A DNA stretch of 64,000 bases from NCBI RefSeq assembly GCF_900112335.1, contig NZ_FOLG01000003.1, positions 248,001 to 312,000 of the forward strand, given 5' to 3'. The stretch is from Tropicimonas isoalkanivorans. GTDB lineage: Bacteria; Pseudomonadota; Alphaproteobacteria; Rhodobacterales; Rhodobacteraceae. A model generated the notes under the pieces. The model made no database searches, had not been told where the DNA came from, and saw nothing but the letters and a program-made list of their open reading frames with translations. Positions 14,996 to 32,838 of the stretch are shown here, one piece after another. Position numbers and translations under genes: made by a program. Each line of letters opens with the position of its first letter. The first letter of the stretch is position 1.

Positions 14996-15168
14996 GACAG
15001 TGCCCGTCGCAAGACAGTCCGCATCGGACAGAAACGACGACGAGCTTTGTCCAGAGGGACCACGCGCCAGATTTTAAACAGCGCGGAATTTGATCTTACA
15101 CCAACACCGTTCAGACGCCCAATGTGTGACCGTCCGTCCGGTGACCGAAGACTGGGAGGAGCTTGCGA

Positions 15169-16242
15169 ATGAAAGTCCTGCAAGAGAAAAAGATCCCGAC
15201 GCCAGCGCCAAGCAACCACGCGTCGAACTTGCTCGAACTTGGGAATGGCGATCTGCTGTGTACATGGTTTGGCGGCTCAATGGAGGGCACGCCGGACATC
15301 AGCATCTATATGGCCCGGTTCGACCGCAGTCGCGACACCTGGCTCGAAGCCGTCAAGATGTCAGATGACCCGACACGTTCTGAACAGAACCCGGCGCTGT
15401 TCAGGCATCCGTCCGGGGAGCTTTGGCTCCTCTACACCGCGCAGCTTTGGGCAGACCAAGGCACGGCCGTGGTGCGGATCCGGCGATCGGCAGACGACGG
15501 GATGACCTGGAGCCCTGCCGTGGAGTTGTTCGACGAGCCGGGAACATTCATCCGTCATGCGCCGGTCGTGAACCCGTCAGGCGCCCTGCTGCTTCCGATC
15601 TGGAACAGCAATATCCGCAATGCATTCGGAGACGACTATAGCCTCGTGAAGGTGTCAGAAGACGGTGGCGAGACGTGGGAACAGGTGCCGGTTCCCGACA
15701 GCCGGGGGAGTGTCCACATGGACATCCTTGAAACGTGTCAGGTGGCCTTCTTCCGGAGGCGGCAGGCCGATCACGTCTTCCGCAGCGTGTCGGACGACGG
15801 CGGGCTTAGCTGGAGCGAGCCCGAGGCCACGACTTTGCCCAATAACAACTCGTCCATCCAGGCCCGCGAACTGAAGGACGGCCGAATTGCCATTATCTAC
15901 AACGAGATTGCCGCCGCAGGCAGGGCCGGAGAAAGCTCCGTACCGCCTTGGATCAAGGATCGCGACGCATTTCTCGCCCAATGCGAGATCACGGAGAGCA
16001 GCGCGATCTGGGGCGTGCCCCGCAATCCGCTGGTCATTGCCACCTCAACGGATCTCGGCCGGAGTTGGACCAAGGAAATCGTGGTGGAGTCAGACGCTCA
16101 ACTCCGGTCGGACCATGATCAGACGGGCGCATTCGTCGGCGACTACTCCTACCCGTCGATCATCCAGACAAAGGATGGCAAACTGCACATCAGCTACTCG
16201 TATCTCCGCGACTACATCAAGCACGCAACCCTCGAAATCTAG
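15169..16242 (+). CDS. BNR-repeat (sialidase-fold) protein without signal peptide
   Basis: The 357-residue protein has the HASNLLELGNGDLLCTWFGGSMEG start of the BNR_2 sialidase-like group and four Asp boxes (SADDGMTW, SEDGGETW, SDDGGLSW, STDLGRSW) expected of a six-bladed propeller. There is no signal peptide, so it should act in the cytosol, unlike secreted sialidases. GGAGGAG supports ATG 15169 over an in-frame TTG six bases earlier. Being next to a NAL/DHDPS-family lyase suggests hydrolysis or isomerisation of an imported sugar-acid-like compound. True sialidase activity is not shown; most leaderless BNR_2 proteins are uncharacterised. Confidence 0.82.
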   Translation: MKVLQEKKIPTPAPSNHASNLLELGNGDLLCTWFGGSMEGTPDISIYMARFDRSRDTWLEAVKMSDDPTRSEQNPALFRHPSGELWLLYTAQLWADQGTAVVRIRRSADDGMTWSPAVELFDEPGTFIRHAPVVNPSGALLLPIWNSNIRNAFGDDYSLVKVSEDGGETWEQVPVPDSRGSVHMDILETCQVAFFRRRQADHVFRSVSDDGGLSWSEPEATTLPNNNSSIQARELKDGRIAIIYNEIAAAGRAGESSVPPWIKDRDAFLAQCEITESSAIWGVPRNPLVIATSTDLGRSWTKEIVVESDAQLRSDHDQTGAFVGDYSYPSIIQTKDGKLHISYSYLRDYIKHATLEI

Positions 16243-21208: not shown

Positions 21209-23032
21209 TCAGCTCTCGCGGCGGCGCAGAATTGTTCCTCGGTCGCCCGCTGCCAGGATCTGATGTGGCATGGCACTGACGGACCGCAATCCGCCGTCGA
21301 AGCCCGTCCGTTCACTCTGCCAGCGTCGGCCGTCGAATGACATGGCAGCGCCAGCAGTGCCCACCGCCACCGTGCGGGCGCCGCTGCCCGAGATAGCCAG
21401 CAGATCGTTGCGCGCACGTGCCGGCGTCAGCCGCCAACTCCGTCCGTCGAAGTGACAAATCGTGCCCGACAGGCCGACGACGAAGATGTCATCCAGCGCC
21501 GATCCCCAGACGTCGAACAGGAAGTTCTCGGTGCCGGAGCTGAATTCCTGCCAGGCCGTTCCGTTCCAGCGAAGAACGAGGCCGAAGTCGCCTACGGCCA
21601 GCAGGTGTTCGCGGTCGCGCCCCCAGAGGCCATAGAGGGCGGATCGTGTGCCGCTGGTCATTCGGGCCCAGTCGCTTCCGTTCCAACGCAGGATCAGGCC
21701 TTCGTCGCCCACGGCGATAACCGTGGCGTCCCCATCGCTCCAGAGCGACATGATCGTCACGTCAAGCTTCAGGTCGAAATGCAGCCGCCATCTTTCGCCG
21801 TCGAAGTGGTGGACTTCGCCTAGTTGCCCAGCCGCAAGCAGGCCGCCGTCGTCGCTGGCCGCAAGCGCGTGGAGGCCGAGCACGCCCGCCGGAGGAAGCT
21901 TGGTCCAGCGATCGCCATCCAGTGCCAGCACGGTGCCTTCCTCGCCGCAGGCATAGGCGATCCCGGTCTGAGGGTGCTGCCAGATGCCCCAGAGCTGCCG
22001 GTCCGTGCCGGTCTCCATCCGTTCCCAATTGGGCGCCGGTTCGGGACGGAGTGCGGGTGCCGGGGTAACTTTGGCGTTCCCGACGAGAAGTGTAGCGAAA
22101 TCGCCGACCGCGATCACCTCCCCCGCCTCCGTAACGTCCAACCCAAGCAGATCGTGTTGTGTTTCGGATGGTAGAGCCGACACGCGCTTGCCCCGGATGT
22201 GGATGCTCTGCCCGCGATCGCCGACAGCCAAAGCGCCATTGCCCAAGGCTCGCAGCGCGCGGAAGCGTGTGGCGCCGGAGCCGGGATCGAGCTTGTGTAT
22301 GTGCGCACCGTCCCATCGCAGGAGATCGCCGAGGAAGCGGCCGGCCTGGACGAAATAGCGGCCGCCGGCCAGCAGTACGTCATCTGGCGCGATGGCGAGG
22401 ACGGATGTGATCGTGGTGGCAACGGGGCATGTCGCGGCCGCCCAGATTCCATCGGGGTCTCGGATCAGCACCGTCCCATTGGCCCCGGCAGCCATGACGC
22501 GGCCGTCGCCCAGCATCGTCACGGCCCGCAGGTGGAAGGGAGTGCCCGAAGGTTCCGCCGCCCAGTCGGTTCCGTCAAAATGCAGGATCAGGCCATTGTC
22601 GCCCACCGCCCAAAAGCGACCCTGGCCGTCGGCAGTTGCAGCGAAAAGCGGAGTGTTGGCGTCGTCGGCGGCATATTTTCCGTCCGCACGGAGCTTGCAG
22701 CCGCGCTCAAGCGTCCAATCGCCATCGCCATGGCGCCAGATCGAGCCCATCCATCCGACGGCGATCAGTCCGGTCTCGAAATCGCCGGTGAAGGCGTGGA
22801 CCGGAGTGCGGGTGGAGAGTTGCCGGCGGTCCCAGACAGTGCCGTCGAAACTCAGGATCGTGCCTTCGTCGCCGCCAATGAAGAGCGTGTCGCCGAGCGC
22901 GTGCACCGCCCAGAAGACGTCGCCCTGCATCGTCGGCGCACCATCCAGCGCTTGCCAGCCGGCGATAACAGGGGCTGCGGCACGCCCGCCCCCCAGAAAC
23001 CCGCGCCTGCTAAGCGTTGTAGTCCCGCTCAC
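21209..23032 (-). CDS. Twin-Arg-leader protein with ~14 beta-propeller repeats
   Basis: The 607-residue protein begins with LSRRGFLGGG, resembling a Tat signal, though an Arg interrupts the hydrophobic core. About 14 repeats of roughly 40 residues follow, each of the form AVGDxGxILRWNGxxW...SGT; clear copies include IAVGDEGLILRWNGSDW and LAVGDFGLVLRWNGTAW. Fourteen units would make two seven-bladed propellers. It starts with GTG overlapping the stop of the P-loop ATPase by four bases, so it belongs to the molybdoenzyme operon. A periplasmic scaffold or maturation factor is a reasonable guess (compare Ycf48-type propellers). I do not recognise an enzymatic function. Confidence 0.75.
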   Translation of the reverse strand: MSGTTTLSRRGFLGGGRAAAPVIAGWQALDGAPTMQGDVFWAVHALGDTLFIGGDEGTILSFDGTVWDRRQLSTRTPVHAFTGDFETGLIAVGWMGSIWRHGDGDWTLERGCKLRADGKYAADDANTPLFAATADGQGRFWAVGDNGLILHFDGTDWAAEPSGTPFHLRAVTMLGDGRVMAAGANGTVLIRDPDGIWAAATCPVATTITSVLAIAPDDVLLAGGRYFVQAGRFLGDLLRWDGAHIHKLDPGSGATRFRALRALGNGALAVGDRGQSIHIRGKRVSALPSETQHDLLGLDVTEAGEVIAVGDFATLLVGNAKVTPAPALRPEPAPNWERMETGTDRQLWGIWQHPQTGIAYACGEEGTVLALDGDRWTKLPPAGVLGLHALAASDDGGLLAAGQLGEVHHFDGERWRLHFDLKLDVTIMSLWSDGDATVIAVGDEGLILRWNGSDWARMTSGTRSALYGLWGRDREHLLAVGDFGLVLRWNGTAWQEFSSGTENFLFDVWGSALDDIFVVGLSGTICHFDGRSWRLTPARARNDLLAISGSGARTVAVGTAGAAMSFDGRRWQSERTGFDGGLRSVSAMPHQILAAGDRGTILRRRES

Positions 23033-24147
23033 TGTGATTCCTCCGACCCGCCTGACGCGCCATGCAGGCGTCGACTTTCCTCGTGCAGGATCTGCGCGAG
23101 GGTGCGGCGGACGGAATCGCGGACCGGGCCATGCATGCCAGCCAGGGCTGCCTCCAGGTCCGCGTCCTCGAGGTTCTTCTCGAATACTTCATCGAGCGTG
23201 CGCGCGACCGCCCCGCCGAAATCGGCCCGGCCGAGCGACGCGCAGGCATCGACGACCTGGGCGAAAGCGGTGGCCACTGCGGGCTCAATCGCCGGGTTCA
23301 GCACAAGGGGTTTTCCGTCGTCCGACCCAGCCGCCAGCGCCGGGTCGAGCGGCAGTTTTGCAATACTCGGAATGCCCAGCCGGTCCAATTGCTCGCCCAG
23401 CCCCGCATCCGGGTAGATGTGGAACGAGCCCTTGCAGTGCGGGCAGGTAACGCCGGCCATGTTCTCCACGCAGCCGACCACGGGCATCCCGCGCTCGAGA
23501 CAGAAGCGCGCGGCCTTGAGGCTGTCCATCTGCGCCACGGCCTGCGGGGTCGTCACCAGCAGCGCGCTCACGTTGCAACCTTCCAGAAGGTCCGCGAGCG
23601 TGATGAGTTCGTTGCCGGTGCCGGGCGGCATGTCGACGATCAAAAAGTCGAGCGGTCCCCAGTCGAAGGAGCCCATCAAGTGATGCACGAAGTCGTGCTT
23701 GTAGGCGTCGCGCCAGACAACCGGCGTCTCGTCGTCCTGCAGCATGAAGGCCAGCGAGCCCACCCGAAGGTCGTGCGCCATCGCCGGATCGGCATAATCC
23801 TTCGTTCCAAGCCCGCGTTCGCTGACACGGATACGCGCGCCAGTGAAGCCAAAGAACCGGCTTTGGTTCGGGCCGTGGATGTCGGCATCGGCCATGCCCA
23901 CGCGGAACCCGCGCGCGCCGAGCCCGGCGGCGAGGTTGGCTGCAACAGTACTCTTGCCCACGCCGCCCTTGTTGGCGAGCACCAGGACGATCTGGTCGAT
24001 GGATTCGAGCCGTGCCTCGATCAGGGTCTTGTTGTGCGCCTGCTTATCGAGCCTGCATTCCTGTTCCAGCGGGCAAAATCCGCAGGCATGTCCCCGGCCG
24101 CACTCCTCGGTGCTCTGTTCGGGTATGGGGAGGGTGAAATGCGCCAT
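23029..24147 (-). CDS. Nbp35/Mrp-type P-loop ATPase, candidate Fe-S carrier
   Basis: The 372-residue protein is an Mrp/Nbp35-family ATPase: deviant Walker A ANKGGVGKST (residues 58-67), DADIHGPNQSRFFG, DMPPGTGNE, and the bridging-cluster CPHC motif in GVTCPHCKGS. It also has an N-terminal four-cysteine patch (C16, C22, C25, C31) like that of eukaryotic Nbp35, which most bacterial Mrp proteins lack. The family assembles or carries [4Fe-4S] clusters. Lying 4 bp after the heme gamma subunit gene and overlapping the propeller gene, it is probably a dedicated Fe-S maturation factor for the molybdoenzyme. The last ~80 residues are an extra helical tail. Confidence 0.85.
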   Translation of the reverse strand: MAHFTLPIPEQSTEECGRGHACGFCPLEQECRLDKQAHNKTLIEARLESIDQIVLVLANKGGVGKSTVAANLAAGLGARGFRVGMADADIHGPNQSRFFGFTGARIRVSERGLGTKDYADPAMAHDLRVGSLAFMLQDDETPVVWRDAYKHDFVHHLMGSFDWGPLDFLIVDMPPGTGNELITLADLLEGCNVSALLVTTPQAVAQMDSLKAARFCLERGMPVVGCVENMAGVTCPHCKGSFHIYPDAGLGEQLDRLGIPSIAKLPLDPALAAGSDDGKPLVLNPAIEPAVATAFAQVVDACASLGRADFGGAVARTLDEVFEKNLEDADLEAALAGMHGPVRDSVRRTLAQILHEESRRLHGASGGSEESQ

Positions 24148-24151
24148 CTCT

Positions 24152-24949
24152 TCAGTTCCCCGCCGCCGGACCGGTATCGGGCGTCAGTTCGGCGATGATC
24201 CAGTCCTGAGAGACCAGCTTCAGCCCATCGCGCTGATCGTCGGCGCCCTGCCAGACGGCGAAGGCGACCGGGATCGTCTCGCGATCGAAGCTGATCTGGT
24301 GTTCGCCTTCCGCGACCAGCGGGCGCGACATGACGACAATCCATTCGCTGTCGTCGGCGTTGGCGCCGGTCAAATACTCGCTGCCGCCGGTGACGGGCTG
24401 CTCCTCCAGCCGCGTGATGCTGCCTGGACCACCGGCCGCCAGCGATTCCACGCGGTCGCCTTCGGGATGCCAGTACCAGATGTTCACCGTCTCCTCGGCG
24501 CCGGAGCCCATCATGTAGGAAACGTAGTCGTCGCCCGAGGAAAATTCGATCGCCGCCCCGTCGCGGAAAGCGTCGCGTTTCGTCGCCACGTTCTCGGTTT
24601 CGTCCATCCAGCGCAGTCGAACATAGAAGCGATCCGAGGTTCGGGCGAGTTGAAAGACGAGGTTCTCCGTCGGGTAGTCATCGGTGTACCGGATCTCGAC
24701 GGATGGATGGACCGGCGGGGCGAGCCCCATCTCAACGCGAAACTCGGGAATCCGCGCCCAGATAATGTCGTCGGGATCGTTGACCGTCCTGAGGAAGATC
24801 CCATCGGGGATCTTGGACACCGGCACGGACTCTCCCGGTTCGATCAACTTGATGTTTGACTCGGCCAGTGTGTCGGCCGCCGCAGCCGGCAACGCCGTGG
24901 TCGCCATCAAAAGCGCAGCCGTGCCGCAGGAAATCCGAAGTCCGGGCAT
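24152..24949 (-). CDS. Type II DMSO-reductase-family gamma subunit (heme b)
   Basis: This 265-residue protein has a Sec leader (cut after PAAAA) and resembles the periplasmic heme-b gamma subunits of dimethylsulfide dehydrogenase, selenate and chlorate reductases and ethylbenzene dehydrogenase. Typical segments are RTVNDPDDIIWARIPE, VEIRYTDDY, YVRLRWMDETEN, RDGAAIEFS and the C-terminal PVAFAVWQGADDQRDGLK. In this family heme b links the Fe-S beta subunit to a periplasmic cytochrome. Axial ligands cannot be assigned without alignment. AGGAGG supports the start. It lies 9 bp after the chaperone gene, as in the A-B-D-C order of ddh, clr and ser operons. Confidence 0.88.
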   Translation of the reverse strand: MPGLRISCGTAALLMATTALPAAAADTLAESNIKLIEPGESVPVSKIPDGIFLRTVNDPDDIIWARIPEFRVEMGLAPPVHPSVEIRYTDDYPTENLVFQLARTSDRFYVRLRWMDETENVATKRDAFRDGAAIEFSSGDDYVSYMMGSGAEETVNIWYWHPEGDRVESLAAGGPGSITRLEEQPVTGGSEYLTGANADDSEWIVVMSRPLVAEGEHQISFDRETIPVAFAVWQGADDQRDGLKLVSQDWIIAELTPDTGPAAGN

Positions 24950-24958
24950 CGTGTCCTC

Positions 24959-25714
24959 CTAACCCCAGAGATTTTGATTGATCGCCTCGTCCCGAGCCGG
25001 CGTCTGCCGCGGGCCGTCGGGCCGGCGATAGGGCCCGACGCGCGCCTCGAGCTCGGCGATCTGGAGCTCGGCCAGGCCGTGCAGGTCGCGGATGAGCCGG
25101 GCTATCGTCGGGTCGAGAACCGGATCTAATGGCCGCTGTATCGACGTGCCGATCAGCGCGAGAAGCGGCGCGACATAGCGGCTGAGGAAATCGCGTTGCG
25201 CCCGGCGAAGCGGATCGGGGCTTTTGCCGACTGCGATCGCCTGCGCCTCGAGGTGGGCGAGCACGGCCATGAACTCCAGCAGGCAAGCCACGTGGTCTGG
25301 CTCGTCCACGCGGCCCTCGTCCTCGGTGGCCTGTTTCAGGCCGAAATGCCGATAGAAGGCGGCGACATTCAGCATGTAGGCGGGGCGCGCGAGGCCGCCC
25401 AGCATCTCTTCGTGCTCGCCCGCCAGAAGCGAGGCCAGCCGCTTGCCGCCCGGGCCGTGCTCGAAGGCGGCGATATAGCCGGACTCGAGCGCGGCAAAGC
25501 TCTCCGAGGGCATTTCGCGCGGCCAGCGCCGGCCGGTCAGCGCCGACCATGCCTCGTCGAAAGCGGCGTGGAAAGCGCCGGTTTGCAACGCCTCCTGAAA
25601 GGACGGAATGGGGTGGCCGAATGCCAATGCGCCAAGCCGCCAGACGGTTTCCTTTGCATGGGCGCGCTCGGCGCTCTCGCCATGAGGAACGGGGGGAGGT
25701 GCGAGAACCGACAT
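24959..25714 (-). CDS. TorD/DmsD-family molybdoenzyme chaperone
   Basis: The 251-residue, mostly helical soluble protein fits the TorD-like chaperones that bind the Tat leader and help insert the molybdenum cofactor into the catalytic subunit. Features include WRLGALAFGHPIPSFQEAL, EYERLF-like ESFAALESGYIAAFEHGPGG, and VAAFYRHFGL followed by DEPDHVACLLEFMAVLAHLEAQA, the EPxDHxxxELEFM core of the family. It lies 3 bp after the beta subunit gene, the usual D position of type II DMSO reductase operons. Confidence 0.9.
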   Translation of the reverse strand: MSVLAPPPVPHGESAERAHAKETVWRLGALAFGHPIPSFQEALQTGAFHAAFDEAWSALTGRRWPREMPSESFAALESGYIAAFEHGPGGKRLASLLAGEHEEMLGGLARPAYMLNVAAFYRHFGLKQATEDEGRVDEPDHVACLLEFMAVLAHLEAQAIAVGKSPDPLRRAQRDFLSRYVAPLLALIGTSIQRPLDPVLDPTIARLIRDLHGLAELQIAELEARVGPYRRPDGPRQTPARDEAINQNLWG

Positions 25715-25717
25715 CGC

Positions 25718-26695
25718 TCAGCTCAACTTGAACATCTCGGCGTGGCGGTAGCCGATGAGCGTATCCATCAGCTCGCTCTCCGCGCCAGACTGCTTTTTCG
25801 CCCGCTCCTCTCTCAGCGTATCAAGAGAGGAGACCACTCCATCGCCGAATAGGCTTTTGAGATAGTCGAGCGGAACGCGCGTTTCCTCCGTCGGTTCGCC
25901 GTTGCCGTCGATGCGCGGGGGCGCCATGGGCGGCACGTAGAACACGTTCGGCTCGGTGCCCCATTCCGGGTGGAGCGGGAGCGCGACCTTGTATTTCTCG
26001 ACCAGCAAGTGGATCGGGCCCGCCTCGTCGTCGCGGTAGCCGATCCAGCGGATGCGCCCGACGCATTGCTTCGCGCAGGCGGTGGGCAGGCCCTTTTCGA
26101 TCCGCGGATAGCAGAAGATGCACTTCTCCGATTTCGAAATTTCTTCGTTGAAATAGACCTTCTTGTAGGGGCAGGCCGTGACGCAGTAGCGGTAGCCGCG
26201 GCACCGTTCCTGATCGACCAGCACGATGCCGTCCTCCTGCCGCTTGTAGATGGCGTTCCGTGAGCAGGCCGCCAGACAGGCCGGGTTGGCGCAGTGGTTA
26301 CACAAGCGTGGAAGGTAGAAATAGTAGCTGTTGGGGTAGTCTCCCCTGCCCTCGTCCTCGTCCCAGTTCGCGCCCCAGGTGGGTTTGACGTTGGGGCGCA
26401 GCCACGGGTCGGTCCCGGTCATTAACGCTTCTTCGTAGTTGTATTCCCAGGGGATGCCGTAATCCTCAGCGATCGGCGTGATGCCGATTTTAAGGGCGCC
26501 GTCCTCGTCGAATCCGCCACCCGAATTTTGGTAGTTCCGGGGGTAGCCTGCGCCGGGGTGTGTTTCGACGTTGTTCCAGTACATGTATTCGCGGCCGTTA
26601 CGGTTGGTCCATTGCAGCTTGCAGGCCGAGGTGCAGGTCTGGCATCCGATGCACTTATTGAGGTCGAGGACCATGCTGAGTTGACGTTTGACCAT
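25718..26695 (-). CDS. Type II DMSO-reductase-family beta subunit, four Fe-S clusters
   Basis: The 325-residue protein is a NarH/DdhB-like electron-transfer subunit. Cysteine groups are C15/C18/C21/C25, C132/C135/C140/C144, C165/C171/C175 and C192/C195/C207/C211. In the third group CRGYRYC has Tyr168 where a Cys would bind, the hallmark of a [3Fe-4S] cluster in this group; NarH has Trp there. There is no leader, so it is carried across the membrane with the Tat-targeted alpha subunit. It passes electrons between alpha and the heme gamma subunit. It follows the alpha gene by 35 bp. Confidence 0.95.
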   Translation of the reverse strand: MVKRQLSMVLDLNKCIGCQTCTSACKLQWTNRNGREYMYWNNVETHPGAGYPRNYQNSGGGFDEDGALKIGITPIAEDYGIPWEYNYEEALMTGTDPWLRPNVKPTWGANWDEDEGRGDYPNSYYFYLPRLCNHCANPACLAACSRNAIYKRQEDGIVLVDQERCRGYRYCVTACPYKKVYFNEEISKSEKCIFCYPRIEKGLPTACAKQCVGRIRWIGYRDDEAGPIHLLVEKYKVALPLHPEWGTEPNVFYVPPMAPPRIDGNGEPTEETRVPLDYLKSLFGDGVVSSLDTLREERAKKQSGAESELMDTLIGYRHAEMFKLS

Positions 26696-26730
26696 GGCGG
26701 TTCACCCGTTTTTCTGATGTTGCGACCGGC

Positions 26731-29463
26731 TCAGACGGCTTCGATATCGACGCTGTTCTCGTGGGCGAGCTGGTTAGCGTTCCAGTGCCAGAGCGAGAAG
26801 TTCAGATGCCCCCAGCCGCCGACCAGTTCGAGTGGCTGCAAGAGCGTTGCCATGCAGGCGTTCATCGGCCGAAAGTTCGGAAACTGGTGCGGCTCCCAGC
26901 CGTGTTCCATCATGATCGTGTCGGTCGGAAGGCTGGGGTAGAATTTGGCCTGCGCGTAGAAATCGCTGAGCCCGTTGAAGACCCGGACATGCCCTCCGTC
27001 CACGATCCCCTTGGCGGCGGCGAGTTGCGGGTTGATGTAGATGTTGGGCTCCCCCCGCTGCAGGCGCATCATGAACTTGTTGCTGCGCCAGTTGGAGTGA
27101 ATGCCCCAGCGGGTGTGCGGCGAGTAGAACTGCAGCGGATAGTTCGAGGCATCGCGGCCCGCGTGGTGCCGCGCGGTGGGAACGGTGGACCCCAGCTTCA
27201 CGAATCGGGGATGATCCACGAAGAAGGTAATCCGACCCGTCATCGTCTTGTAGGGTGCCTTGCCCTCGGTCTGGGCGGTGAAGGCGTTATAGGGCTCGTC
27301 GGCTTTCAGTGGCTGGTTCGGCCCCCCGTCCTCGCCCATGACGAAGAAACCGCGCTCGACCCCCTCCTCCAACGTCGCCCCGGCGAATTCGGGGCCGTTC
27401 TCGACCAGCCACTTGGTGGCATCGAGATCGGTCAGGAGTGTGCCGCCCATGGTGTAGTCGTCGTGGATGGTGTGGAAGTCGCGGGTGACGTCGCCATCCT
27501 GATAGCTGGTCACGCCGCGGGCGATCGCGCGCTCCTGGATCTTCCGCGTCAGAAGCTCCATGATTTCCCAGTCCGACTTCGCCTCGCCCACCGGCTCGAC
27601 CGGCTTGGAGAAGACGTTGACGAAGCGGTGGAAGGCGACGGAGCGCAGGTCCCACGCCTCGTAATGGCTGGCCGCGGGCAGCAGGTAGTCTGCCCATTGC
27701 GCAGTGGAGTCCATGCGCACGTTTATGTCGACGAAAAGCTCCTCGACTTCCTCCAGGATGCGCTCCCGATAGGCCTCGGCGTTCTTGTTGCGGCGGAACT
27801 TGTTGTCGGCAATCGAGATCAGCCCCTTCATGTCGCCGAAGTACGGCATCCAGCCGGAGTCGATGGACTCGTCGATCATCTCCTGAAGCTCGTCGAGGTC
27901 GAACCCCGTGCGTTCCTTCAGCTTGTCGTTGTCGTAGTGCTGGCGGGAATGCTCCATCATTCCGCCGCGGACAAATTCGCCAAGGCCGCCGGCCTCCAGC
28001 CGCGGGAACTTCTTGAACTCGAACAGCGCGAGAGACAGCCACATCGGCTGGTTCCACTCGATCCAGGAGGTGTCGAGCCCGCCGGTCTTTCCGCCGTGCC
28101 CCGTCAGCGCCAGCATCAGCGACAGGGCCCAACTGGTGTAGATGCCGTTGGAATAGCGCCCGACGTTGAAGCCGGTCATCAGCAGCGCCTTCCTGGCCTT
28201 GGCGAAGGTCTCCGCCTCCGCGCGGACCACGCCGGCCCCGATGCCGGTGATCGCCGCCGTCTCTTCGGGCGGGTATTTCGCCGCCTCCGCCTTCACCTTT
28301 TCGAAGACGGTGGTGACGGGAATGCCCTCCACCTCGAAAGTCCCTTCGAGCGCCGGGTCGACCTCGCCCAGTTCGAGCGTCTTGTCCTCCGATCCCATCG
28401 AGCCCTTTACCTTAACGGCCGCGCCGGTCTTGGTGTCCCAGTGGTAGAAGACCTGGTCGGAGCCGCCGTCATCGAGGTCGGCCTCGCGCAGGAGCATGCC
28501 GGTATCGGTCCGAACAAGGATCGGCAGGTCGGATTGCTCCTTCATGAAGGCCTCGTTGTAGAGCTTGCCTTCGATAATGACGTTGACCATGGACATCGCG
28601 AGGAACGGGTCGGCGCCCTGCTTCACCGGCATCCAGAGATCGGCGTGAATTGACGAGGGGTTATAGTCCGGCGCAACCGAGACAACCCGCGCGCCGTTCC
28701 ATTTGGCTTCCCAGATGTAATGTGCGTCCGGAATGCGGGTCACATTCGGGTTGAAGAGCAACATCATGATGTAGTCGGCATCGAACCAGGCGTCCGACGT
28801 GAAGCTCTCCAGCGCGTTGCCGTAGGCCAGGTGCGCGCCGGTGTTAAGGTCCCCCACGTCGGTGAAGATGTCCAGCTGGACCCCGCCCACCAGGGAGGCG
28901 AAGCGGTAGGGCGCGGCCAGCCGGACCATCGACAGGTTGCCCGACCCGGTGTGAGTCATCAGCTTTCCGGGACCATGCTCTTCGTAGATGTCGATGATCT
29001 TGTCGGCGATCTCCTCGGTCGCCTGGTCCCAACTGATGCGCTGCCACTTGCCTTCGCCGCGCGCGCCGGCCCGTTTCATCGGGTACCGCAGGCGGTCCGC
29101 CTCATACATCGAAGTGGAATGGACCGACCCCTTCTGGCAGCCACGTGGGTTGGCGTCGGGCACATTTGGGTTGATCTGCGGATACTTCGCGAGCTGTTCC
29201 TCGCGGATCACAATGCCATCCTTCACGTAGACGTCGAAGGCGCAGTTGCCGAGGCAGTTGATGCAGTGGGCGGCCTTGCCGATGGAGTCCCAGGAAAACT
29301 CGTTGCGGTAGAGATCCTCCCAGTCCCGGTAGGGATAGTCTTCCTCCAGTGTGTCGCCAATCGGCTCGAGCCGATTGAGCGCCCAGCCGCGGCTCCCCAT
29401 GAAAAGGCCCGCGCCCACAAGCGACGAGCGCTGCATCAGTTCCCGGCGTGTCCAACGAAGCAT
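26731..29463 (-). CDS. Type II DMSO-reductase-family molybdopterin catalytic subunit
   Basis: The 910-residue protein starts at ATG 29463 behind GGAGGAGGAACC; the frame extends to 29700 but the extension has no homology. A Tat leader (TRRELMQRSSLVGAGLF) is followed by the FS0 cluster pattern H66-x3-C70-x3-C74-x34-C109, diagnostic of type II enzymes, and GDLNTG, whose Asp205 aligns with the expected Mo ligand. The family comprises dimethylsulfide, ethylbenzene, p-cymene and steroid C25 dehydrogenases and selenate, chlorate and perchlorate reductases. The A-B-D-C order matches ddh, ser and clr. The substrate is not decidable from sequence; DMS oxidation fits a marine roseobacter best. Confidence 0.93.
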   Translation of the reverse strand: MLRWTRRELMQRSSLVGAGLFMGSRGWALNRLEPIGDTLEEDYPYRDWEDLYRNEFSWDSIGKAAHCINCLGNCAFDVYVKDGIVIREEQLAKYPQINPNVPDANPRGCQKGSVHSTSMYEADRLRYPMKRAGARGEGKWQRISWDQATEEIADKIIDIYEEHGPGKLMTHTGSGNLSMVRLAAPYRFASLVGGVQLDIFTDVGDLNTGAHLAYGNALESFTSDAWFDADYIMMLLFNPNVTRIPDAHYIWEAKWNGARVVSVAPDYNPSSIHADLWMPVKQGADPFLAMSMVNVIIEGKLYNEAFMKEQSDLPILVRTDTGMLLREADLDDGGSDQVFYHWDTKTGAAVKVKGSMGSEDKTLELGEVDPALEGTFEVEGIPVTTVFEKVKAEAAKYPPEETAAITGIGAGVVRAEAETFAKARKALLMTGFNVGRYSNGIYTSWALSLMLALTGHGGKTGGLDTSWIEWNQPMWLSLALFEFKKFPRLEAGGLGEFVRGGMMEHSRQHYDNDKLKERTGFDLDELQEMIDESIDSGWMPYFGDMKGLISIADNKFRRNKNAEAYRERILEEVEELFVDINVRMDSTAQWADYLLPAASHYEAWDLRSVAFHRFVNVFSKPVEPVGEAKSDWEIMELLTRKIQERAIARGVTSYQDGDVTRDFHTIHDDYTMGGTLLTDLDATKWLVENGPEFAGATLEEGVERGFFVMGEDGGPNQPLKADEPYNAFTAQTEGKAPYKTMTGRITFFVDHPRFVKLGSTVPTARHHAGRDASNYPLQFYSPHTRWGIHSNWRSNKFMMRLQRGEPNIYINPQLAAAKGIVDGGHVRVFNGLSDFYAQAKFYPSLPTDTIMMEHGWEPHQFPNFRPMNACMATLLQPLELVGGWGHLNFSLWHWNANQLAHENSVDIEAV

Positions 29464-29618: not shown

Positions 29619-29737
29619 CAGAAATAGCCTGCTCGCTTGCCGTAGCGTCGACCCTCCGCCTATGCTTGCCCGAGGAGGAGGACGGGGGCGCCAGCGGCAC
29701 AAGCCGCGTTCACTCCGCGTGTCCCCCCGCAAGGCTC

Positions 29738-32077
29738 ATGGCGCGAACCGAGGACTTATCCGAAGCCATCAGGCAGCAGAGCGACGCATTGGTCGATGCG
29801 GCCATCGTCCGCGCGAAGAGCCATGGCTATGCGCGTTACACCACAACGATACGTGCAGCTTGGGAGGAGGCGGTGGCGTGTGTCACCGAAGAGCTTACCG
29901 GCTATCTTTTCGATGCCGAAACAGCATCGAGCGGGCCCTTTGCCAACACGAACTATGCCGGCGATCCTCGCTTCGCGCGTATGCGCGAGGTGGCAATCCG
30001 CCACCGCGCCAATGGGGTGACACTGCAACTCTATCTCGGGTTCCTGAAGCATTTTCGCGAGGTCTATCTCGAGCTGATCGGACCGGCCGGGGGCGATCCG
30101 GAGATCGCGCGCAGCCGCGACGAGGTGCGCGGATTCTTCGATCTGGCAGAGCTTTCCATCGCGTCGGACTGGGCGGACGCTACCGACGACGTGAAGCTGC
30201 GCGACCTGCAGATGCGCAATCGAGCAGTCACCCTGGAAAAGGACCGCTACTTCTCCGTCTTCGAAAGCCTGCGCGACCCGGCCTTCCTGCTTGACCGCGA
30301 AAAGAAGCTGATTACCGGCAACCAGGCGGCGGCAGAGATCTTCGTCGGCGAGGCGGGCGCAGGCGAGATCGCCTATCTGAGCGCGATGCGCGCGCGCCGT
30401 GCGCCGTTGGAGGAGGCGTTGAAGGGCCTCGACCTTTGGAACGTGGATCAGCCCGAGGGCAAGAACGCCCTCTGGATCGACACCCGGCATGGGCGCCTCT
30501 GCTTCGACGCCCGCGTCCGGCAAATCCACGACGCGGTTGAGAACCTGCGCCTAGGCTACGTCGTCATCCTTCACGACGTTACCGAACATCGTCGCGCGAC
30601 CGACGAGGCTCAACGGGCGCAACGGGCGATGTCGCAGTTTCTGGCCACGATGAGCCACGAGATCCGCACACCATTGCACGGCGTCCTGGGCGCTGCCGGT
30701 CTCTTGCGCGCGGCCGAGCCAGATCGGGTCGAGGTTTACCGGGACGCGATAGAAGGGGCCGGGCGGCATCTGCTTCAAACGCTCAACAAGGTGCTGGACT
30801 ACTCCCGCCTCGAAGCGCGTCCGCCAGCGCCGACGCCCCGCGTGGTCGAATTGCGCTCGGTGCTCGCAGACTACGCAGGCTTCGCAGCGACCCTGGCGCG
30901 AAATGCCGGGGTCGAGTGCCGGCTCGAGACCTCGAACCGCCTGCCCGCTTGGGTGGAAATCGACTGGGAGATGACTCAGCAGGTACTGACAAACCTGATC
31001 TCCAATGCTGCCCGCCACTCCCGCGGCGACATCGCGCTATCTGTCCGACGTCGGGACCGGAAAGGCCGCCCGCCGGTCCTCAGGTTCGAGGTGGCCGACA
31101 GCGGCCCCGGCGTCCCCCCGGAAGTCGCGGAGGCGCTCTTCGAACCCTTCGGCGCAGTGACGCCGGGCCGGGGTGAAACGTCGGGCTCCGGCCTGGGGCT
31201 CGCCATCTCCCGCCGCCTGGTGACATCGATGGGGGGCGAGATCGGGTTCCGCAACCATCGATTGGGCGCAACGTTCTGGTTCGACGTGCCACTGGTGCCC
31301 GCCGCCCCTGCGGAAACTGTCACGCTGGCCTCTCACTCTGGGGCCCCGGCTCTTTCCCTCGCCGGCCTCCATTGTCTCGTGGTCGACGACGACGCCGTTA
31401 GCCAGTTCGTGGTCCTGGAGAACCTCCGCCGTCTGAATGTCGCCGCCGTTGAGGCCGGCTCTATCGCGACAGCATTGAAATTGGCCGAAACACAGGCTTT
31501 CGATATCTTCATCCTCGACTATCACCTGCCGGACGGAGACGGCATCGACCTTCTGGTGGAGCTTCGTCGACGCGGGAAAGTGCGCGAGGGGGCGCGATGC
31601 ATTTCGCTCACCGCCAATGCCGAATTGATCTCCGGCGGCGCGGGTGGCGATCCAGCGCCATTCGACGCGGTGGTGCCCAAACCCGCGGACGCGGACTCGC
31701 TGCTGAAAGCGTTGACCGGCGAGCAACGGCAGCCGGGCGCCACGGCTCCGCATATCGATATGGACGGAATCTCGCCCTCCGTGGTTCATGCGATGGTGGA
31801 AGCGTTCGAGAGCCAATGGCACGGCGACTACGCTGCCTTTCTGAGGGCCCTCGATGACCGCGATCCCGCCGCGGCGGCCAAGATCGCACACCGGTTGGCC
31901 AGCAGCTGCGCGACACTCGGCCTGATCGATATCGCCGATGTACTGAAGGCCTTCGAATCGGGATGCCGCGGCCGCGCGCCCATCAACGACTTCGCCCCCT
32001 GGAGGCACCGATTGCTGCCGCTCCTGAGCACGGCCCCTGCCCGCGCCGCCGCGATGTCGCACGCGCAGGTGTCGTGA
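29738..32077 (+). CDS. Soluble hybrid sensor kinase with receiver and Hpt (TorS-like phosphorelay)
   Basis: The 779-residue protein has an N-terminal helical sensor region (about 1-150), a PAS-like segment, HisKA with H307 in ATMSHEIRTPLHG, an HATPase domain (ADSGPGVP, GSGLGLAISRRL), a receiver with D594 in IFILDYHLPDGDG, and a C-terminal Hpt with H718 in KIAHRLASSCATLG. This is the domain order of TorS/ArcB-type tripartite kinases, but no transmembrane helix is visible, so it should sense a cytosolic signal. The frame opens at 29666; ATG 29738 follows AAGG. It overlaps the response regulator by one base and is divergent from the molybdoenzyme operon it probably controls. Confidence 0.9.
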   Translation: MARTEDLSEAIRQQSDALVDAAIVRAKSHGYARYTTTIRAAWEEAVACVTEELTGYLFDAETASSGPFANTNYAGDPRFARMREVAIRHRANGVTLQLYLGFLKHFREVYLELIGPAGGDPEIARSRDEVRGFFDLAELSIASDWADATDDVKLRDLQMRNRAVTLEKDRYFSVFESLRDPAFLLDREKKLITGNQAAAEIFVGEAGAGEIAYLSAMRARRAPLEEALKGLDLWNVDQPEGKNALWIDTRHGRLCFDARVRQIHDAVENLRLGYVVILHDVTEHRRATDEAQRAQRAMSQFLATMSHEIRTPLHGVLGAAGLLRAAEPDRVEVYRDAIEGAGRHLLQTLNKVLDYSRLEARPPAPTPRVVELRSVLADYAGFAATLARNAGVECRLETSNRLPAWVEIDWEMTQQVLTNLISNAARHSRGDIALSVRRRDRKGRPPVLRFEVADSGPGVPPEVAEALFEPFGAVTPGRGETSGSGLGLAISRRLVTSMGGEIGFRNHRLGATFWFDVPLVPAAPAETVTLASHSGAPALSLAGLHCLVVDDDAVSQFVVLENLRRLNVAAVEAGSIATALKLAETQAFDIFILDYHLPDGDGIDLLVELRRRGKVREGARCISLTANAELISGGAGGDPAPFDAVVPKPADADSLLKALTGEQRQPGATAPHIDMDGISPSVVHAMVEAFESQWHGDYAAFLRALDDRDPAAAAKIAHRLASSCATLGLIDIADVLKAFESGCRGRAPINDFAPWRHRLLPLLSTAPARAAAMSHAQVS

Positions 32078-32838
32078 TGGGCCATGACAAGAGCCGCATC
32101 CTGATCGTAGACGACGATGCCGTCACCCGGGCGATGCTGCGCGGCATTCTTGGCGAGGCAGGGCATCAGGTCGGCGAAGCGAAAACCTCGGTCGAGGCCA
32201 AGGCAGCCTTGAACAACACCGCCTGGGACCTGGTCTTGCTCGACCGGCGGTTGCCGGATGGCGACGGGCTCTTGCTCATCCGGCGGATCCAGGAATCCCG
32301 CGGTTGCCCGATCATCGTGCTGTCGGTCTTGGGGGACGAACAGGATCGAATGTTGGGGCTTGGGCTCGGCGCGATCGACTACATAACCAAGCCATTTAAC
32401 GCCAACGAGATCCGGGTCCGCATCCGAAACCTTCTCGCCGCAGATAGACGGCCGCTCCAAGTGGCAACCGGCGACCAGATCGCCCATGGACCATTCTGCC
32501 TGCGGCAGGCGACGCGGCAATTGCTGGTCGACGGCAGGACCGTGCGCCTCAGCCCCTCTGAAGCGCGGCTCCTGGCAATCTTCCTCACCCATGCTGGGGA
32601 GGTTCTGGATCGTTCGCGCCTGACGCCCCCGATTTGTGGCCGGGATTGGTCCTACGAGGACCGAGCCATCGACGTGCTCGTGGCCCGTCTGCGAAAGCGG
32701 ATCGAGGCCGATCCGAAGAACCCGCAATGGATTATCACCGTGCACGGCGACGGCTATTGTTTTCTCGATGCGACGGCAGAGGACGCATCAGAGCACCTCA
32801 AACGACTGGAGGCATCTGAAGGGGCCCTGTCACGTTAG
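32077..32838 (+). CDS. OmpR/TorR-family response regulator
   Basis: This 253-residue regulator has a receiver domain (acidic pocket in ILIVDDDAV; phospho-acceptor D56 in DLVLLDRRLPDGDG; YITKPF lysine) and a C-terminal winged helix ending in RAIDVLVARLRKRIE and WIITVHGDGYCF. ATG 32077 shares one base with the kinase stop (TGATG); GTG 32074 is also in frame. With the upstream Hpt-containing kinase it forms a TorS-TorR-like relay. The TGTAA repeats at 29593-29618 are the most likely binding site, so it probably controls the divergent molybdoenzyme genes and its own operon. Confidence 0.92.
   Translation: MGHDKSRILIVDDDAVTRAMLRGILGEAGHQVGEAKTSVEAKAALNNTAWDLVLLDRRLPDGDGLLLIRRIQESRGCPIIVLSVLGDEQDRMLGLGLGAIDYITKPFNANEIRVRIRNLLAADRRPLQVATGDQIAHGPFCLRQATRQLLVDGRTVRLSPSEARLLAIFLTHAGEVLDRSRLTPPICGRDWSYEDRAIDVLVARLRKRIEADPKNPQWIITVHGDGYCFLDATAEDASEHLKRLEASEGALSR

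Follow-up and report, generated by a model that had tools for sequence, protein, structure and literature searches.

The window analysed here, a 64,000-nucleotide (64-kb) stretch, G000:C48:248001-312000, from the 5.0-Mb genome of Tropicimonas isoalkanivorans, carries on its minus strand, from 29463 to 21209, six genes arranged head to tail that encode the alpha, beta, delta and gamma products of a molybdoenzyme operon followed by an ATPase and a propeller protein. The spacing is tight, with 35 bp between alpha and beta, 3 bp between beta and delta, 9 bp between delta and gamma and 4 bp between gamma and the ATPase gene, and the ATPase and propeller genes overlap by 4 bp; a first-pass annotation made from the sequence alone had the coordinates, the gene order and this close continuation into two extra genes right. 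The open frame of alpha extends to 29700, and its conserved start is Met80, at 29463. The features of the operon are as follows (Tat, twin-arginine translocation; Fe-S, iron-sulfur).

26731..29463, minus strand: alpha, molybdopterin catalytic subunit with Tat signal (TIGR03479, 1369 bits against a cut-off of 985; FS0 ligands; Tat-like N-terminus)
25718..26695, minus strand: beta, four-cluster Fe-S subunit, likely client of the putative loader (TIGR03478, 593 bits against 481; coupled to propeller loss)
25721..25729, minus strand: C-terminal Lys-Leu-Ser of beta (FKLS in 55/55 rows with propeller)
24959..25714, minus strand: delta, TorD/NarJ-type chaperone (TIGR03482, 166 bits against 152)
24152..24949, minus strand: gamma, heme b subunit (TIGR03477, 218 bits against 170; hydrophobic N-terminus, Sec signal judged by eye)
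23029..24147, minus strand: Nbp35-like ATPase of the Mrp/NBP35 family, 372 residues (PF10609, E 2e-67)
24055..24102, minus strand: N-terminal CX5CX2CX5C of the ATPase (60/60 relatives)
23434..23445, minus strand: CPHC bridging-cluster motif of the ATPase (CPxC in 60/60 relatives)
23032..23241, minus strand: predicted C-terminal helical extension of the ATPase (missing wherever the propeller is missing)
21209..23032, minus strand: tandem propeller protein, 607 residues, two predicted seven-bladed rings, probably cytosolic (AlphaFold2; N-termini of relatives)
23003..23008, minus strand: twin-arginine pair R9 R10 of the propeller (invariant in 42 aligned rows)

The first four genes passed all four subfamily models and are a type II enzyme of the dimethyl sulfoxide reductase family, as the A-B-D-C order had been read at first pass. 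This core is shared with ddhABDC, clrABDC (read here on pALIDE01) and serABDC, which are covered by the same models. The FS0 ligands of alpha read H145-x3-C-x3-C followed by one more Cys; one His and three Cys as FS0 ligands are a feature of the type II family, as stated in an excerpt of PMC8840923.

The fifth gene product is a member of the Mrp/NBP35 ATPases, carrying a PF10609 domain and a C-terminal CXXC. The solved structures closest to it in sequence are those of archaeal carriers, of ApbC and of Cfd1 (6g2g), a scaffold of the cytosolic Fe-S protein assembly (CIA) pathway, and its top fold match is Cfd1. The Nbp35-like N-terminal patch of four Cys residues noticed at first pass proved real, since CX5CX2CX5C near the N-terminus was found together with CPxC in the second half of the protein in 60/60 extracted relatives. 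Three other high-scoring Mrp proteins of the genome had no Cys ahead of Walker A, and one of them, which was domain-scanned, has a Cia2-like domain. The N-terminal motif of Nbp35 proper is CX13CX2CX5C; here the last two Cys intervals are equal to it and the first is shorter (CX5 versus CX13). Walker A reads NKGGVGKST in 39/39 aligned rows, Asn replacing the first Gly of GKGGhGK[ST], which an excerpt of PMC6345978 gives as the deviant Walker A of Mrp/NBP35 ATPases. AlphaFold predicted extra helices at residues 310-326, 329-335 and 340-366, past the ATPase domain. The best reading of the ATPase, judged from its motifs, is a cytosolic Fe-S loader.

No Pfam or NCBIfam family was above cut-off for the sixth gene product; the only WD40-type match, Beta-prop_EML_2, reached 15.8 bits against a cut-off of 90, and PSII_BNR was not among its Pfam matches. 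AlphaFold2 run with 42 sequences (predicted local distance difference test 89.8, predicted TM-score 0.58) gave 14 four-stranded blades forming two predicted rings of seven, whose placement relative to each other is uncertain, with the first strand starting at residue 26 and low confidence for residues 1-18. Foldseek matched many tandem propellers with no function in common and picked out no single adaptor, and a profile search returned six weak matches, namely TLAP2, DOA1 and four Ycf48 chains. Ycf48/HCF136 is an assembly factor of photosystem II that has one ring and is lumenal or periplasmic; the blades of our protein match it weakly by profile (E 0.002-0.004), with TLAP2 and DOA1 scoring above it.

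The N-terminus of the propeller bears on its location. R9 and R10 are invariant in 42 rows, and the hydrophobic residues next to them resemble those of a Tat motif; in the window protein the stretch behind them is fairly hydrophobic (hydropathy 1.26, versus 1.22 in the window alpha). These points, and the existence of periplasmic tandem propellers, would suit an exported protein that scaffolds alpha, beta or gamma in the periplasm, with the ATPase alone loading clusters in the cytosol. The window protein is exceptional, however: the best hydropathy after the two arginines had a median of -0.16 in 53 propellers (range -0.69 to 1.09), while 39 alphas from these loci had a median of 1.24 (range 0.94 to 1.78), in a comparison that left out L038, whose propeller piece lacks the arginines, and the alphas missed by the motif search. 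The position of the first modelled strand, at residue 26 behind a poorly predicted stretch of 18 residues, also argues against export. A periplasmic propeller was set aside on the N-termini of its relatives, which have no hydrophobic stretch after the arginines, and we regard the exported scaffold as quite improbable; the protein is probably cytosolic, judged by relatives that carry no signal peptide. Thus, of the exported protein of about 14 propeller repeats described in the first-pass annotation, the 14 blades agree with the prediction and the export does not, a reasonable call given that after the arginines the window propeller is as hydrophobic as alpha; likewise, of the proposed maturation system, the cytosolic loader stands as the best reading of the ATPase and the periplasmic scaffold falls with the missing signal peptides. 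In carrying a bare twin-arginine motif, a cytosolic propeller with a role in assembly would be reminiscent of NapF.

To see how far the two extra genes accompany the enzyme, as the first-pass annotation had suggested, relatives of alpha were scanned with one genome per species, which gave 66 loci. Where an alpha copy had at least 6 kb of sequence after it (58 copies; 11 more, too short or without the alpha end, were uncounted), the ATPase gene followed in 55 and both ATPase and propeller genes on the same strand in 52, the gene order being kept across alpha-, beta- and gammaproteobacteria. The exceptions were L022, L043 and L051, with the ATPase only, L045 and L046, which are copies beside an intact or contig-cut set, and L071, a 49%-identical outlier. 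The operon is duplicated in tandem at L045, L046 and L075; the first copy at L046 has no delta, ATPase or propeller match, and the second ATPase at L045 is a 55-residue match only.

Separate searches for alpha, ATPase and propeller in 90 genomes of the genus of Halomonas icarae (G425, locus L032) found an alpha of the window type in nine (eight above cut-off and one split over two contigs), with weaker alpha-like matches of 205-379 bits in three further genomes. The ATPase was present in the same nine (621-641 bits, the next best, at 212, being a general Mrp), as was the propeller, once as two pieces. A tenth genome of this genus (G528, 2.1 Mb) holds a 129-residue propeller piece on a 3.7-kb contig (L114, 2854-3438), with no alpha at E 1e-60 and no special ATPase, and the piece is a remnant or reflects an incomplete assembly. 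Two weak propeller matches in the genus are permeases with an inserted propeller (L106, 8199-9956, and L107, 7872-9629), in which a PSII_BNR-like propeller lies between the membrane parts of a PF00528 permease (Pfam, L106). In a class sample of 385 genomes, alpha above cut-off, the ATPase (E 1e-75; 0/384 others) and the propeller were confined to the window's own genome, apart from one 76-bit propeller-like match elsewhere; four other genomes had weaker alphas, and the stretches around these, some on short contigs, contained neither ATPase nor propeller. Type II alpha was above cut-off in a phylum sample of 398 only in the window's own genome. These genome-sample searches scored few candidates per genome, and a miss in them is not absolute. 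The propeller was in none of eight same-genus genomes (0/8), so the operon is sporadic, and no propeller relatives were found on plasmids and viral contigs. Together, the data support that both extra genes belong to the enzyme; they were not found equally without it, the finding that would have spoken against the first-pass proposal, one propeller piece without alpha (G528) having been met with. In the titles and abstract openings of the open-licence literature the two genes beside a type II enzyme are undescribed, founding papers possibly mentioning them, and the words 'Mrp' and 'propeller' are both absent from the main text of PMC10100899.

We then considered the substrate. In the genus of Rhodovulum imhoffii, two of 16 genomes had a type II alpha (E 1e-150), and one of the two, G444 (L097), has all six genes, with identities to the window of 83, 89, 66, 69, 73 and 69% for alpha, beta, delta, gamma, ATPase and propeller, respectively. 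The N-terminus of the L097 alpha presumably agrees with that of the dimethyl-sulfide dehydrogenase (DdhA) of Rhodovulum sulfidophilum, and the window enzyme is probably a dimethyl-sulfide dehydrogenase as well. A chlorate reductase was rejected as window enzyme, there being no match to chlorite dismutase (cld) in the 64-kb window and alpha grouping with L019 and the L097 copy. ClrA of pALIDE01 is just 43% identical to the window alpha, and clrABDC of this plasmid is followed by cytochrome c and mobB in place of the ATPase and propeller genes, both of which are absent. The six genes also lie beside cld and a cytochrome c gene in Stutzerimonas chloritidismutans AW-1 (L040, 20-13762, and L082), which we take to be a chlorate reducer. 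There the operon is surrounded by IS21-, DDE- and ISL3-type transposase genes and is split across two contigs whose ends match 99.9% over 1638 bp, and no second type II alpha was found in the genome at E 1e-150; chlorate reduction there is probably the job of this relative of dimethyl-sulfide dehydrogenase. L040 is the only six-gene locus with a cld match. The ATPase and propeller thus seem to follow this alpha clade, whatever the substrate. The first-pass view that the system is not recognised from characterised members is not quite right, the six genes occurring in L097, whose alpha is probably the studied dimethyl-sulfide dehydrogenase, and in AW-1. A small c-type cytochrome related to L040 8015-8341 is encoded in 24 loci, mostly immediately upstream of alpha, and is a possible redox partner.

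The loci in which the ATPase is present and the propeller absent, L022 and L066 (Rhodospira) and L043 and L051 (gammaproteobacteria), link the two extra proteins to each other and to beta. An alpha tree of 70 rows, of which 54 have the propeller, four lack it and 12 were left out, needs two changes to explain the absence; one change sufficed in 0/200 bootstrap trees. The ATPase tail, counted from CPxC onwards, is 74-84 residues long in the four propeller-less loci and 120-143 in the 54 with propeller; at L046 and L070, where the propeller is cut by the contig end, the tails are of 128 and 136 residues. That a missing propeller coincides with a short tail on a cytosolic ATPase is a further argument against a periplasmic scaffold.

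To locate residues that changed with the propeller, we took the positions invariant in all full propeller-bearing rows and counted those changed in both propeller-less lineages. In beta these were 6/187 (T93, Y124, E163, S187, E244 and S325; 55 rows including the window), compared with 1/351 in alpha (50 rows), 0/18 in delta, 1/37 in gamma (L022 and L051 alone usable) and 2/84 in the ATPase core. As a control we drew four rows at random 3000 times, two of them alphaproteobacterial and two not: for beta the mean was 0.026 and the maximum 2, and in 315 sets built with the deepest rows the mean rose to 0.18 with the maximum still at 2. The single position in alpha was reached by 218/3000 random sets, the deep sets having a mean of 0.78. 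These counts bear on an explanation in which the ATPase serves alpha, for molybdenum cofactor or FS0, while the propeller acts apart from it in proofreading, as a co-chaperone keeping alpha-beta from Tat until folded, and no Fe-S cluster passes to beta. The varied jobs of MinD-type ATPases and the resemblance of the propeller arginines to a Tat motif minus its export part are in keeping with it. The alpha count, however, is within the control range, unlike the 6/187 of beta, and CX5CX2CX5C and CPxC are kept in 60/60 relatives; we consider this explanation unlikely.

Beta is also more diverged than alpha predicts. Its identity given that of alpha was too low by 0.051-0.065 in the four loci (z -6.5 to -8.2), whereas the residuals of the 49 propeller rows were all above -0.026; the same test gave nothing for delta and at most z -2.6, at one locus, for the ATPase core. 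The z values treat rows as independent though they are related, and the effective sample is two events. Replacement by a foreign beta was rejected, the betas of the propeller-less lineages staying near their alpha kin (with weak support, 86/46, for L022/L066). The C-terminus of beta is FKLS in 55/55 propeller rows and FKVG, FKVG, FKLS (L043) and FKLG in the four propeller-less loci; other listed type II betas have different C-terminal ends. Beta could have changed with life-style, through oxygen exposure or the redox partner, and the propeller and ATPase tail could have been lost for the same outside cause with no contact between the proteins. That there are only two lineages, with Rhodospira and Thiohalocapsa among them, fits such a cause, as does a cytochrome c gene downstream of the operon in L051, with a similar one seen by eye in L043. 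Against it, Thiorhodococcus, a phototroph, retains the propeller and the invariant residues at L035 and L052, and beta is out of line with alpha where delta is in line; we hold a shared outside cause to be improbable.

Maturation of periplasmic molybdoenzymes is usually accounted for by a TorD/NarJ chaperone, and to our knowledge the insertion of clusters into such enzymes before Tat export is poorly understood. We propose, with moderate confidence, that the ATPase and propeller would together be a cytosolic, client-dedicated Fe-S loader for beta of the type II enzyme, probably dimethyl-sulfide dehydrogenase. What the sequences support directly is the operon, its conservation, the cluster motifs, the predicted two-ring fold and the joint changes in propeller, ATPase tail and beta, and from these we infer cluster transfer, binding and the order of steps. 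An ATPase dimer would take a [4Fe-4S] cluster at CPxC from the general SUF/ISC machinery; the propeller would dock on it through the C-terminal helical extension and hold apo-beta, in part by the FKLS end, and clusters FS1-FS4 would be inserted into beta. The bare twin-arginine motif of the propeller might contact delta, the chaperone that proofreads for Tat, and so delay export until loading is done. Loaded beta would then pair with alpha, itself given FS0 and molybdenum cofactor with the help of delta, and alpha-beta would leave through Tat and join gamma outside.

Several observations weigh against a dedicated loader for beta. The coevolution rests on two independent losses (four loci), for which a sign test cannot reach significance, and the absence of the propeller at L066 was judged from the 625 bp remaining beyond the ATPase on the contig. 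The signal of change in both lineages is strongest in beta yet not confined to it: the single gamma position was reached by 0/3000 random sets (maximum of 1 in the deep sets) and the two positions of the ATPase core by 2/3000. L043, without propeller, retains FKLS, and the betas of L043 and L051 adjoin that of L052, which has the propeller and the next longest beta branch. Three of the four propeller-less loci belong to Rhodospira or Thiohalocapsa, which we take to be purple phototrophs, and life-style could drive the change. Operons without the propeller apparently manage, and both genes are absent from clrABDC of pALIDE01 and from stretches L100, L101 and L108-L113, some of which are on short contigs. 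In hydropathy, the top of the propeller range reaches slightly into that of the alphas.

Among known systems, excerpts of PMC6345978 describe Ind1 as serving complex I and MrpORP of Desulfovibrio as passing clusters to its own ORP complex. Like our ATPase, MrpORP is an Mrp/NBP35 ATPase beside its client complex, has extra N-terminal Cys and is proposed as dedicated; unlike it, MrpORP has a C-terminal Di-Nase domain (the window ATPase scores 233 bits against an equivalog cut-off of 450), and those excerpts (PMC6345978) describe no propeller partner. Dedicated Mrp/NBP35 carriers are thus known, and the pairing of ATPase and propeller appears new. Cia1 is a WD40 protein and MMS19 a HEAT protein. 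The eukaryotic CIA pathway, as outlined in part of PMC10623007, uses Cfd1-Nbp35 as its scaffold, and clients are picked by Cia1, Cia2 and Met18/MMS19 through a tripeptide at the client C-terminus. An Nbp35-type ATPase, a propeller and a client C-terminus (here the FKLS end of beta) recur in our operon; the pathway differs in serving more than 30 clients rather than one, and no Nar1-like gene is among the six. KLS of beta was rejected as a CIA-type tripeptide, as it does not fit [LIM]-[DES]-[WF], and the tandem propeller of the window has no WD40 family above cut-off. We do not claim CIA membership, given that Cys spacing (CX5 against CX13 in Nbp35), WD40 signature and tripeptide all differ, and the likeness, by analogy, is probably convergent.

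Type II clusters of Haloarchaea, which resemble those of nitrate reductase, offer a partial parallel. In 3/3 plasmid loci a chaperone gene and one unknown gene are followed by genes for a HEAT-repeat protein and an ATPase, located as follows by Pfam domains.

L102 15517-17675; L103 16312-18357; L086 13274-15423: haloarchaeal HEAT and ATPase genes

As in our operon, the enzyme genes are followed by a PF10609 ATPase, here with an N-terminal Cia2-like domain (PF01883); unlike it, there is no Cys before Walker A, the ATPase ends in a DUF2249 tail, the clusters lack a propeller, and CPxC is present in one of three, which makes cluster carriage doubtful. The published Haloferax nar operon stops at narJ in an excerpt of PMC2483277. 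Tentatively, and with less belief than doubt, we suggest that the operon may be a bacterial counterpart of CIA with one client, in which an Nbp35-type scaffold would pass clusters to a cytosolic tandem propeller and on to beta, and which Haloarchaea may parallel with a HEAT protein and a Cia2-domain ATPase. Recognition would involve the C-terminal tail and a surface patch of beta, and the bare twin-arginine motif would tie loading to Tat export. The presence of CPxC in only one of three haloarchaeal ATPases lowers the weight of this suggestion; if true, Nbp35-family ATPases would have acquired propeller and HEAT adaptors repeatedly, by convergence. With beta as predicted client, with contact sites that are likewise predicted and with lineages that naturally do without the propeller, this small and genetically separable module makes propeller-based Fe-S targeting testable in a simple bacterial system. 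Expression of dimethyl-sulfide dehydrogenase or the AW-1-type enzyme may require six genes rather than four.

Predicted promoters and terminators of the operon were no better than those of shuffled sequence. Divergent from it lie two regulatory genes (Pfam), relatives of which are also upstream at other alphaproteobacterial loci.

29666..32077, plus strand: divergent hybrid histidine kinase (HisKA, HATPase, receiver, Hpt), probable regulator
31963..32838, plus strand: OmpR-type response regulator

A CheB/CheR/PAS/kinase gene, matched among related loci in the window's own genome only, starts about 600 bp past the propeller gene, and a BNR-repeat (sialidase-like, PF13088) protein, probably unrelated, is encoded downstream of the operon (15163-16242). 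L113 (G451:C1:42000-61000) has a 379-bit alpha-like enzyme and a chlorite dismutase match, with ATPase and propeller absent. In the window's own genome a second operon (L098, 6233-13023; G000:C20) combines chlorite dismutase with an 848-residue molybdopterin enzyme, an Fe-S subunit, a TorD-type chaperone, a cytochrome c and an ApbC that has a Cia2-like domain; this gene set recurs at L104 on a plasmid of Alisedimentitalea, with 93% identity between the two chlorite dismutases.

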